A stretch of DNA of 64,000 nucleotides, taken from positions 86,839,980 through 86,903,979 of the forward strand of contig CP136063.1 of assembly GCA_032622095.1 (NCBI GenBank). The letters run 5' to 3'. Position 1 is the first letter of the stretch, and each line of letters begins with the position of its first letter. Under the pieces are notes generated by a model that ran no database searches, had not been told where the DNA came from, and saw only the letters and a program-made list of their open reading frames with translations. This stretch comes from Siphonodentalium dalli. Its lineage: Eukaryota; Mollusca; Scaphopoda; Gadilida; Siphonodentaliidae. Position numbers and translations under genes: made by a program. This document shows positions 1 to 47,220 of the stretch, piece after piece.

Positions 1-449
1 ATGCTACTAACATCTCCAAAAATCTCAAGCAAATCGACCGTACCACTCCATAGAAGACATCGTCTTAACTACACTCAATTGTAAATATTTACTATCAATT
101 CGGGACTCATCTATCGGCGATAAACTAATGAAAACGATTTCGCCATCAAGAGTCACTGCATTTAATTAATATATTAGAATGATGGCATGTGTTGTCAATT
201 TGGATATAATATTTGTAAAAATTACTACTTTGAACAAAATTATTCTCCATTTACATTTTATCAACATATAGGAGTGTTTCACATCACTTTGATCATATTA
301 ATATTGTTCACACAAGAACCAAGCATCAAATTGTATTTTGAACTCCTTGATTGAGCAGATACATTATAAGTCATCCTGAAATGATGAAACTGGTTCTAAC
401 CCTGATGAGCACAGATTAATGTTCCAGGCAAAGGGAGGAAGGGACTGTT
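1..449. other. intron sequence, no feature seen
   Basis: AT-rich non-coding. I searched the minus strand for the rest of the HRDC domain here and in 669-1228 and found no convincing exon. Confidence 0.5.
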
Positions 450-668
450 CTACAGTAATGCCCTAAATAATCGACTCCTTAACCACAGCAGAATTATGGG
501 TAATTATTCTGGATTTAGTCGGAAATATGGCTTGTTGCCATTCATCGCAATGCTCTCGGGGAGAGATTTCCAATGAAGGCAACAAGCCATATTTCCGACT
601 AAATCCAGAAAAAATTAACCATAATTCTGCAGTGGTTAAGGAGTCGATTATTTAGGGCAATACTGTAG
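450..668. mobile_element. fold-back MITE, family A (CTACAGTAATGCCCTAA termini)
   Basis: Two arms of about 95 bp in inverted orientation: CTACAGTAATGCCCTAAATA at the left and its complement at 668. A second near-complete copy is at 47335-47508 and a half copy at 39904-40012. No ORF. Non-autonomous. Confidence 0.85.
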
Positions 669-1228
669 TGGTTGCGGTTACCACCATGTCCTGCTTGTGC
701 ATCCCCAATGAGAATATTTTTCAAAATTTAGACTAATATCACCCCTCTTAATTCAAATTGTTTGGCTTCCGCAATCCGCTACGGCAACCCTTTGCATGGC
801 CCAGTTTACTTCAGCTGATAACTATAGCAAATTATGAGTGCTGCTAATATGGAGGTTCTGGGGTTAATTATATGGGCTTCTGAACAACTAGTAAGACTTA
901 AGGGTAAGAAATAAGTCAAGAAACCTGTAGTATGTGGGTATCATTCCCCATAAGCTGCCTTATCAACATACCAAAGTACAATCAAATCTGATGATCCATG
1001 CCTGAGTTACAAGCTGAAATGTTCAAACAGAAAACAATTTCCACTCAAAAAGGACTGTAACCTTGGGTATCCCCCCCCCCCCCCCCCAATGCCAAAGGAA
1101 AACAAAATCTGAGTTACAAGGTGATATGTTCGTACATATGGACGTACGGCTAGACTGAGGGACAGATGGATGGAACCCTCAAATATATACCCAGGCCCAC
1201 CTTCGGGGGTTGGGGCATAATAATGGAA
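669..1228. other. intron sequence, only the C run recognised
   Basis: No coding signal. Short ORFs spanning it are built on the poly-C run and the minisatellite copies. Confidence 0.5.
1070..1088. repeat. poly-C run
   Basis: About 18 consecutive C on the plus strand, hence a G run in the BLM pre-mRNA sense. Length is likely to vary between individuals or be mis-assembled. Confidence 0.85.
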
Positions 1229-1353
1229 CATACCGGTAGCCATTTCCAGCAATTCACTAATAAGAAAACTTACCGATATCTCTGGCCATTTCCAAGAATA
1301 CACTAGTAAGGAAACTTACAGATTTCCCTGGCCATTTCCAGCAGTTCACTAAA
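1229..1353 (-). repeat. diverged outlying copies of the splice-junction minisatellite
   Basis: Three units resembling the 46-bp array, each ending (minus strand) in a donor-like GTAAGT or GTATGT: GATATCG|GTAAGT near 1273, AAATCT|GTAAGT near 1320 and CTACCG|GTATGT near 1233. The middle one still reads LEMARDIGKF as in exon 20. They are cut off from the main array by the TIR element at 1354-1826. Confidence 0.8.
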
Positions 1354-1826
1354 GGGCCACTTAATTTTCGAACCCCCAGATCACATATATAAATTATATG
1401 CCATATTATATACCATTTGAAAGAGGAAACTCCAAAACATTGTATTATCAACTTATCCTGTGTAATAAACTGTGAACATGTTGTTTTTGTTGAGTTACCA
1501 ACATGTTTTTGTGCTTAAGTTTCATCTGGATTTGTTGTGCAAAGTGTATTATTTTCGATGGCGGGGGGAAAAACTCTATATTTTAAATATAGTGTTATTC
1601 CCCTTTCATTGAAAATATTTTTTTAGTTTGAATTCTGTTGCATTCTGGGAACCATAACATGGGGAATGTTTTTATGATTTCAGCTATTTTCTATTTCTCT
1701 ATGGCCAGTATGGGCATCTTCTGAGACACAAACATTTAATCATATTTTATGGCATAGATTGTTATTAAAACCATATATCAAGGCACTGTAAACAAAATAA
1801 TCGGTGACTCGAAAATTAAGTGGGCC
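1354..1826. mobile_element. TIR transposon-like element splitting the 46-bp array
   Basis: Left end GGGCCACTTAATTTTCGA, right end the inverted TCGAAAATTAAGTGGGCC. 473 bp, no coding potential. It lies between diverged and main copies of the minisatellite. A clear target duplication is not visible. A related end (GGCCCACTTAATTTT) occurs at 49514. Confidence 0.65.
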
Positions 1827-4800
1827 TTATGATTAAACCTACCAATAGCCCTGGCCATTTCCATCATTTCATTAATGATTAAACCTACCAATATCCCTGG
1901 CCATTTCCATCATTTCATTAATGATTAAACCTACCAATATCCCTGGCCATTTCCATCATTTCATTAATGATTAAACCTACCAATAGCCCTGGCCATTTCC
2001 ATCATTTCATTAATGATTAAACCTACCAATATCCCTGGCCATTTCCATCATTTCATTAATGATTAAACCTACCAATATCCCTGGCCATTTCCATCATTTC
2101 ATTAATGATTAAACCTACCAATAGCCCTGGCCATTTCCATCATTTCATTAATGATTAAACCTACCAATATCCCTGGCCATTTCCATCATTTCATTAATGA
2201 TTAAACCTACCAATAGCCCTGGCCATTTCCATCATTTCATTAATGATTAAACCTACCAATATCCCTGGCCATTTCCATCATTTCATTAATGATTAAACCT
2301 ACCAATATCCCTGGCCATTTCCATCATTTCATTAATGATTAAACCTACCAATATCCCTGGCCATTTCCATCATTTCATTAATGATTAAACCTACCAATAT
2401 CCCTGGCCATTTCCATCATTTCATTAATGATTAAACCTACCAATAGCCCTGGCCATTTCCATCATTTCATTAATGATTAAACCTACCAATATCCCTGGCC
2501 ATTTCCATCATTTCATTAATGATTAAACCTACCAATATCCCTGGCCATTTCCATCATTTCATTAATGATTAAACCTACCAATATCCCTGACCATTTCCAT
2601 CATTTCATTAATGATTAAACCTACCAATATCCCTGGCCATTTCCATCATTTCATTAATGATTAAACCTACCAATAGCCCTGGCCATTTCCATCATTTCAT
2701 TAATGATTAAACCTACCAATATCCCTGGCCATTTCCATCATTTCATTAATGATTAAACCTACCAATATCCCTGGCCATTTCCATCATTTCATTAATGATT
2801 AAACCTACCAATATCCCTGGCCATTTCCATCATTTCATTAATGATTAAACCTACCAATATCCCGGGTCATTTCCATCATTTCATTAATGATTAAACCTAC
2901 CAATAGCCCTGGCCATTTCCAGCAATTCATTAATGATTAAACCTACCAATATCCCTGGCCATTTCCATCATGTCATTAATGATTGCCATTTCCATCATTT
3001 CATTAATGATTAAACCTACCAATATCCCTGGCCATTTCCATCATTTCATTAATGATTAAACCTACCAATATCCCTGGCCATTTCCATCATTTCATTAATG
3101 ATTAAACCTACCAATATCCCGGGCCATTTCCATCATTTCATTAATGATTAAACCTACCAATAGCCCTGGAAATTTCCAGCAATTCATTAATGATTAAACC
3201 TACCAATATCCCTGGCCATTTCCATCATTTCATTAATGATTAAACCTACCAATATCCCTGGCCATTTCCATCATTTCATTAATGATTAAACCTACCAATA
3301 TCCCTGGCCATTTCCATCATTTCATTAATGATTAAACCTACCAATATCCCGGGCCATTTCCATCATTTCATTAATGATTAAACCTACCAATAGCCCTGGC
3401 CATTTCCAGCAATTCATTAATGATTAAACCTACCAATATCCCTGGCCATTTCCATCATTTCATTAATGATTAAACCTACAAATATCCCTGGCCATTTCCA
3501 TCATTTCATTAATGATTAAACCTACCAATATCCCTGGCCATTTCCATCATTTCATTAATGATTAAACCTACCAATAGCCCTGGCCATTTCCATCATTTCA
3601 TTAATGATTAAACCTACCAATATCCCTGGCCATTTCCATCATTTCATTAATGATTAAACCTACCAATATCCCTGGCCATTTCCATCATTTCATTAATGAT
3701 TAAACCTACCAATATCCCGGGCCATTTCCATCATTTCATTAATGATTAAACCTACCAATAGCCCTGGCCATTTCCAGCAATTCATTAATGATTAAACCTA
3801 CCAATATCCCTGGCCATTTCCATCATTTCATTAATGATTAAACCTACCAATATCCCTGGCCATTTCCATCATTTCATTAATGATTAAACCTACCAATATC
3901 CCGGGCCATTTCCATCATTTCATTAATGATTAAACCTACCAATAGCCCTGGCCATTTCCAGCAATTCAATAATGATTAAACCTACCAATATCCCTGGCCA
4001 TTTCCATCATTTCATTAATGATTAAACCTACCAATATCCCTGGCCATTTCCATCATTTCATTAATGATTAAACCTACCAATATCCCTGGCCATTTCCATC
4101 ATTTCATTAATGATTAAACCTACCAATATCCCTGGCCATTTCCAGCAATTCATTAATGATTAAACCTACCAATATCCCTGGCCATTTCCATCATTTCATT
4201 AATGATTAAACCTACCAATATCCCTGGCCATTTCCATCATTTCATTAATGATTAAACCTACCAATATCCCGGGTCATTTCCATCATTTCATTAATGATTA
4301 AACCTACCAATAGCCCTGGCCATTTCCAGCAATTCATTAATGATTAAACCTACCAATATCCCTGGCCATTTCCATCATTTCATTAATGATTAAACCTACC
4401 AATATCCCTGGCCATTTCCATCATTTCATTAATGATTAAACCTACCAATATCCCTGGCCATTTCCATCATTTCATTAATAATTAAACCTACCAATAGCCC
4501 TGGCCATTTCCATCATTTCATTAATGATTAAACCTACCAACATCCCATGCCATTTCCATCATTTCATTAATGATTAAACCTACCAATATCCCTGGCCATT
4601 TCCATCATTTCATTAATGATTAAACCTACCAATATCCCGGGCCATTTCAATCATTTCATTAATGATTAAACCTACCAATATCCCTGGCCATTTCCAGCAA
4701 TTCATTAATGATTAAACCTACCAATATCCCTGGCCATTTCCATCATTTCATTAATGATTAAACCTACCAATATCCCTGGCCATTTCCATCATTTCATTAA

Positions 4801-5549
4801 TGATTAAACCTACCAATATCCCGGGTCATTTCCATCATTTCATTAATGATTAAACCTACCAATAGCCCTGGCCATTTCCATCATTTCATTAATGATTAAA
4901 CCTACCAATATCCCTGGCCATTTCCATCATTTCATTAATGATTAAACCTACCAATATCCCTGGCCATTTCCATCATTTCATTAATGATTAAACCTACCAA
5001 TATCCCTGGCCATTTCCATCATTTCATTAATAATTAAACCTACCAATATCCCTGGCCATTTCCATCATTTCATTAATGATTAAACCTACCAACATCCCAT
5101 GCCATTTCCATCATTTCATTAATGATTAAACCTACCAATATCCCTGGCCATTTCAATCATTTCATTAATGATTAAACCTACCAATATCCCGGGCCATTTC
5201 AATCATTTCATTAATGATTAAACCTACCAATAGCCCTGGCCATTTCCAGCAATTCATTAATGATTAAACCTACCAATATCCCTGGCCATTTCCATCATTT
5301 CATTAATGATTAAACCTACCAATATCCCTGGCCATTTCCATCATTTCATTAATGATTAAACCTACCAATATCCCTGGCCATTTCCATCATTTCATTAATG
5401 ATTAAACCTACCAATATCCCTGGCCATTTCCATCATTTCATTAATGATTAAACCTACCAATATCCCTGGCCATTTCCATCATTTCATTAATGATTAAACC
5501 TACCAATAGCCCTGGCCATTTCCAGCAATTCATTAATGATTAAACTTAC

Positions 5550-5577
<28 letters not shown>
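1827..5577 (-). repeat. 46-bp minisatellite of copied exon-20/5' splice-site junction, about 81 copies
   Basis: Unit (plus strand) runs GATTAAACCTACCAATATCC then CTGGCCATTTCC then ATCATTTCATTAAT. Successive units start 46 bp apart (e.g. 1877, 1923). On the minus (BLM) strand each unit reads GGAAATGGCCAGGGATATTG|GTAGGTTTAATC with the bar at the exon-intron boundary, i.e. the end of BLM exon 20 plus its donor. The true junction at 5550 is the right-most member and carries GTAAGT. Variants with AGCAATTC, AGCCC or CCCGGG recur in groups, suggesting higher-order repeats. One truncated unit lies near 2980. 46 is not a multiple of 3, so reading frame is not kept. Confidence 0.97.

Positions 5578-47220
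<41,643 letters not shown>

Follow-up and report, generated by a model that had tools for sequence, protein, structure and literature searches.

The minisatellite of human IFI6 has a unit of 12 nt and its isoforms are in frame. This minisatellite, in the gene also called G1P3 or 6-16, reportedly provides multiple splice donor sites, as the title of the work of Turri, Cuin and Porter in 1995 (Nucleic Acids Res 23:1854) has it. Two downstream repeat units act as splice donors and three mRNA species are possible, according to PMC4526556. Human segmental duplications contain repeats of minisatellite length, some of them at exon-intron boundaries, which vary between recent copies and to which alternative splicing and novel introns are attributed; PMC2812944 gives averages of 30-bp units, 4 repeats and 160 bp, with up to 39 copies in one gene group. 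For the potato RdRp gene, PMC4974935 describes intron gain by tandem duplication over the intron 1/exon 2 boundary. Intronic minisatellites in earthworm are the subject of PMC12783039.

The array described here, in a BLM gene of Siphonodentalium dalli, resembles that of IFI6 in being a minisatellite with multiple splice donors, which in BLM are predicted from the sequence, but differs in its unit of 46 nt, which is not a multiple of three, in its copy number and in the stop codon within the first added stretch. The two BLM arrays, of 81 and 21 units of 46 bp with no new intron evident, differ from the segmental duplication repeats of PMC2812944. As in potato (PMC4974935), tandem duplication over a splice boundary has brought splice signals along; however, the BLM array crosses the 5' donor, is without an obvious acceptor and multiplies donors only. 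No published report of this array was found in the literature searched, Bloom syndrome by name included. The array is real, uncommon and instructive, yet known in kind, IFI6 being the precedent, and is most simply seen as a tolerated unstable array.

The BLM gene and the array at its exon-intron junction

The window, meaning the whole stretch of 64,000 nucleotides analysed, is C3:86839980-86903979 in a genome of 2.23 Gb and nine contigs. Nine translated exon pieces taken as one protein gave human BLM as the best match (1.1e-124, PDB), with the next RecQ-type proteins at 9.9e-71 and weaker. The HRDC and RQC profiles exceeded their cut-offs at both copies of the locus, A in the window and B elsewhere on the contig, and the helicase, zinc, RQC and HRDC parts expected of BLM were found. 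Judged by these matches the host gene is BLM, of the RecQ family. Stops did occur inside some matches: one TAA per copy in the RQC match, which in copy A sits in the acceptor-side TTTAAG, and one TGA and one TAA per copy in the protein match at the next exon. Both matches were taken to extend past the exons; the exon pieces themselves are stop-free. The strongest HRDC profile match genome-wide, in a long open frame at C6:60704725-60704928, belongs to a different gene.

The exon next to the array, called exon 20 in the initial annotation, is 130 nt long and contains the start of the HRDC region. It lies on the minus strand at 5550-5679 of the window and is defined by its acceptor TTTTCAG, its donor GTAAGT, tblastn and the match to human BLM. 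Just beyond the window, at C3:86839620-86839811, comes the next exon, which carries more of HRDC. The intron between them, also on the minus strand, covers window positions 1-5549 and ends just beyond the window at C3:86839812, giving 5,717 nt overall, 65% of which is array in copy A when counted from the first donor on. The same intron has a near-palindrome with long inverted arms at 463-655.

Tandem Repeats Finder (TRF) placed the 46-bp array at 1829-5579 of the window with 81.0 copies and 93% matches. One unit, in the BLM sense, consists of about 30 bp of exon end and 16 bp of intron start. The array adjoins the donor of a real coding exon, the junction being at 5549/5550, and it begins there as had been claimed: by the unit list and donor count, unit 1 is the real junction of the 130-nt exon (5534-5579, minus strand; 30 nt of exon and 16 nt of intron, donor GTAAGT at 5549). 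The core minisatellite follows at 1829-5533 on the same strand, where TRF, the unit list and the donor counts give 80 further units with a GTAGGT donor in each. The proposal that a BLM exon-intron boundary has been amplified next to itself is thus supported, since the array opens with the real junction as unit 1 and the later units come after it. Spacing between units is 46 nt except for one step of 73 nt.

The figure of about 81 donors in one BLM intron was borne out, with the qualification that one of the 81 is the real donor. Copy A has TTG/GTAAGT once (the real one), TTG/GTAGGT 79 times and TTT/GTAGGT once. Counting a 5' splice-site match per unit within the tandem array, and including the real ones, there are 81 donors in copy A and 21 in copy B. 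The further statement that every unit equals the exon end plus the donor held only in part. The units do derive from the junction, but the 32-mer quoted for them is exact in only 48 of the 81 units of copy A, real junction counted, and the others carry substitutions. On the same count the 20-nt exon end is exact in 50 of 81, and GTAGGTTTAAT was found in 80 of 81.

The exon-end 20-mer had no occurrence outside the array in the whole window, and chance resemblance is therefore excluded. A genome search with the unit, which scored the best candidates only so that absence elsewhere is not proven, listed 48 matches, all of them at the window locus or at C3:86503209-86504719, where copy B lies. Among these listed matches the unit was not found dispersed elsewhere without exon flanks, being confined to the BLM locus and its duplicate, and an origin from a dispersed repeat was rejected.

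The array is longer than first described. The stretch at 1829-5579 stands, but about 2.5 older, diverged units with two GTAAGT donors lie further into the intron at 1239-1351 on the minus strand (TRF 1239-1352, sequence and counts). The unit also occurs, 21 times, at the second locus. Between the core and these outer remnants is a dispersed element of 477 bp at 1352-1828, unstranded, recognised by its 20-nt terminal inverted repeats and by a genome search with 1353-1828 as the query. This search scored the best 40 of 6,758 candidates and found the element at 82-86% identity in at least 38 further places beyond the two BLM copies, a lower bound. Copy B repeats the arrangement, with the element and then outer units with GTAAGT donors.

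The second copy of the locus

In copy B, TRF found the array at 5757-6719 of the stretch analysed, which is C3:86503757-86504719. Its 21 units make up 25% of the intron, which is 3,792 nt long in this copy. The region is colinear with copy A in the same orientation, head to tail, and the main aligned pieces are 332-342 kb apart. Identity from about window position 9.8 kb onwards is mostly 98.4-99.5%, with one piece at 96.2%, and before that about 90-99%. This comparison covered about 60 kb of copy A, from 10 kb outside the window to 49.8 kb within it; pieces shorter than 150 bp or below 85% were left out of it, and the alignment is broken up by insertions.

The extent of the copies was gauged from 11 fetched samples of 1.5 kb, of which 5 were searched and 3 gave a partner on the other copy. 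These were the samples at 86.45, 86.62 and 86.70 Mb, with partners at distances of 339.6, 333.6 and 335.3 kb respectively; such distances and positions place the copies head to tail. The sample at 86.81 Mb gave repeat-like partial matches only, not even itself being among the matches listed. By these samples the copies span about 255 kb or more, C3:86364686-86621500 and C3:86700001-86955045, with the sampled BLM exons inside. The boundary region (86.62-86.70 Mb), represented by one sample, gave satellite-like sequence. A satellite-like repeat present on many contigs occurs between the two copies at C3:86639492-86648295 and 86660001-86661500.

Other tandem arrays also seem to vary between the copies. 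A 97-bp array of six units at window 6675-7260, in the next upstream BLM intron, seems to be missing from copy B, where the alignment jumps from 6676 to 7334. A 67-bp minisatellite at window 27980-30818, reported in two phases of 25.8 and 16.6 copies, seems length-variable too, the matching stretch of copy B being about 946 bp.

All nine of the BLM exon pieces sampled are stop-free in both copies, with 98.3-100% amino-acid identity between B and A, which gives no sign that an array of either size has put the gene out of action. An assembly artefact, which the initial annotation had named as a danger, is unlikely given that both separately assembled copies hold long arrays with different unit types, the copy numbers being those of the assembly. 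There are 18 and 12 unit types in the two copies, 4 of them common to both.

On this comparison the second locus would be either an uncollapsed allele or a recent duplication. We lean slightly towards two alleles that the assembler placed next to each other, with 81 against 21 units as a length polymorphism of one gene. Two head-to-tail copies of about 255 kb or more with uneven identity (about 90% to 99.5%), many insertion differences and nearly identical coding pieces point this way. However, a genuine recent tandem duplication predicts much the same pattern, and the boundary, sampled once, is satellite-like.

Donor sequences and variation among units

It had been suggested that the donors of the array are kept weaker than the real one, and at first sight copy A agrees, with a real GTAAGT against GTAGGT in 80 of 80 core donors and with 9.1 bits for GTAAGT against 6.5 bits for GTAGGT by a position matrix. 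The real junction of copy B, however, reads TTG/GTAGGT, the same as its array donors. The contrast is therefore confined to copy A, and the suggestion is contradicted unless B is unexpressed. Outer donors in both copies are GTAAGT, and pairing with the U1 5' end is predicted to be nearly as strong for one state as for the other (-9.1 kcal/mol for GTAAGT and -8.8 kcal/mol for GTAGGT). The suggestion fails on these grounds despite the lower matrix score, and selection for weakness of the array donors is scarcely credible.

Masking of the array donors by RNA structure was also rejected. Donor accessibility calculated by RNA folding was 0.467 for the real donor of copy A against a mean of 0.376 over 77 array donors, 78 of the 81 donors having fitted the search pattern, and 0.183 against 0.364 over 20 in copy B. 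Real and array donors thus show no consistent difference.

The GTAGGT state looks instead like a single array mutation spread through the core by homogenisation. Because GTAAGT persists in the outer units past the element, in copy A as in copy B, GTAGGT is more likely to be the derived state. An early GTAAGT array would have had its far end severed by insertion of the element, after which the core would have been homogenised, presumably in the direction of GTAGGT.

The two copies differ at two places over the 130 bases of the exon and the first 16 of the intron, a synonymous base in a Leu codon and donor position +4. These two positions belong to the part of the junction that the 46-nt unit covers, and in each case the base of copy B is found in the array of B. 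This is what would be expected if the real junction were a live member of the array, with units overwriting the BLM exon end and donor by gene conversion. The Leu-codon state is, however, also present in an outer unit of copy A and absent from the core array of A, so it may simply be old, and conversion of the junction appears unlikely. Were it to occur, concerted evolution would tie coding sequence and a splice site to an intronic minisatellite whose length would also tune poison splicing.

Variation was counted over 99 array units from both copies, after exclusion of the real junction of each copy and of a single 45-bp unit in B. Minor base states, each counted once, numbered 21. Of these, 19 fell in the 30 columns that stem from the exon and 2 in the 16 that stem from the intron; columns 31-41 had none. 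The donor hexamer is unchanged across all 99 units. The binomial P for the 16 intron-derived columns was 0.009, or 0.016 with G and C sites weighted double. For the 11 invariant columns it was 0.003 (0.005 weighted), this stretch having been picked after viewing the data. The donor hexamer gave P = 0.05, and an invariant run of at least 11 columns anywhere gave 0.07. The 67-bp array of the window served as a control: two of its parts, from which 25 of 25 and 12 of 16 units entered the count, also had long invariant runs, of 31 and 38 columns, though with few events (6 and 4). Constraint on the donors would then be a hint and not a result. A test for higher-order repeats gave lag 12 as best, with 7 of 32 non-major types shared, which suggests block duplication and not more.

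Predicted consequences and the most likely history

Reading through past the exon gives DIGKFNH and then a stop in copy A, and MARDIGRFNH and then a stop in copy B. The stop is a TAA just past the junction and before donor 2, so all later donors, and intron retention as well, would encode one and the same truncated protein. The prediction of isoforms that stop after GKFNH is therefore supported as a reading-frame outcome, and most of HRDC would be missing from them. With 46 nt not a multiple of three and TAA following GKFNH, isoforms kept in frame through array donors are not expected. A simple screen of the intron for pyrimidine-rich AGs of the acceptor kind gave none inside the core array of either copy. 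RNAs with early stops are expected to decay.

The common stop could make the array a rheostat of poison donors, in which use of array donors rises with array length and the length sets the dose of full-length BLM. That all later donors converge on a stop before donor 2, that predicted U1 pairing of array and real donors is so similar and that the hexamer is invariant over the counted units would all suit such a device. Yet the invariance is weak once the choice of stretch is allowed for, open exon pieces accompany both 21 and 81 units, and folding accessibility does not consistently separate real from array donors; we regard regulation of this kind as decidedly unlikely.

A cluster of 80 GTAGGT donors within about 3.7 kb might alternatively bind many U1 snRNPs, so as to suppress premature polyadenylation in a long intron or to sequester U1. 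Suppression of intronic polyadenylation by U1 is described in the review PMC3826338. In copy A, however, AATAAA is absent from the intron and its two ATTAAA lie beyond the core array; the intron of copy B, with fewer units, has two AATAAA and two ATTAAA. That a single transcript could sequester so abundant an snRNP is implausible. A role in U1 binding is thus highly improbable.

The array is, in our judgement, probably an unstable intronic minisatellite derived from a boundary duplication and most likely a tolerated passenger, nearly neutral, with at most a small predicted cost in splicing. A 46-bp segment, with 30 nt from the end of the BLM exon and 16 nt from the beginning of the intron, would have been duplicated in tandem, and slippage or unequal exchange would have made the array grow and shrink into a minisatellite. 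GTAGGT would be one mutation of the array that took over the core; the real junction of copy B is in this state too. All units lie downstream of the original donor without an obvious 3' splice site, so the first donor probably still gives the default product. Splicing from a later donor would bring whole units into the RNA and meet the same TAA, giving one HRDC-truncated protein from RNAs that would probably be degraded. The difference between 81 and 21 units and the 4 common unit types fit a tolerated passenger, as expected of an unstable array. Against it, the donors are oddly intact, and a neutral array with slightly harmful donors might have lost some.

The locus offers a natural test of how the spliceosome settles on a single donor when about 80 nearly identical ones are present, and the one genome provides both array lengths, 81 and 21, and both states of the real donor, GTAAGT and GTAGGT. 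Should the later donors be used, the dose of full-length BLM, a helicase of genome stability, would depend on the length of the array. If they are not, the array would place a limit on how far donor similarity alone decides splicing.
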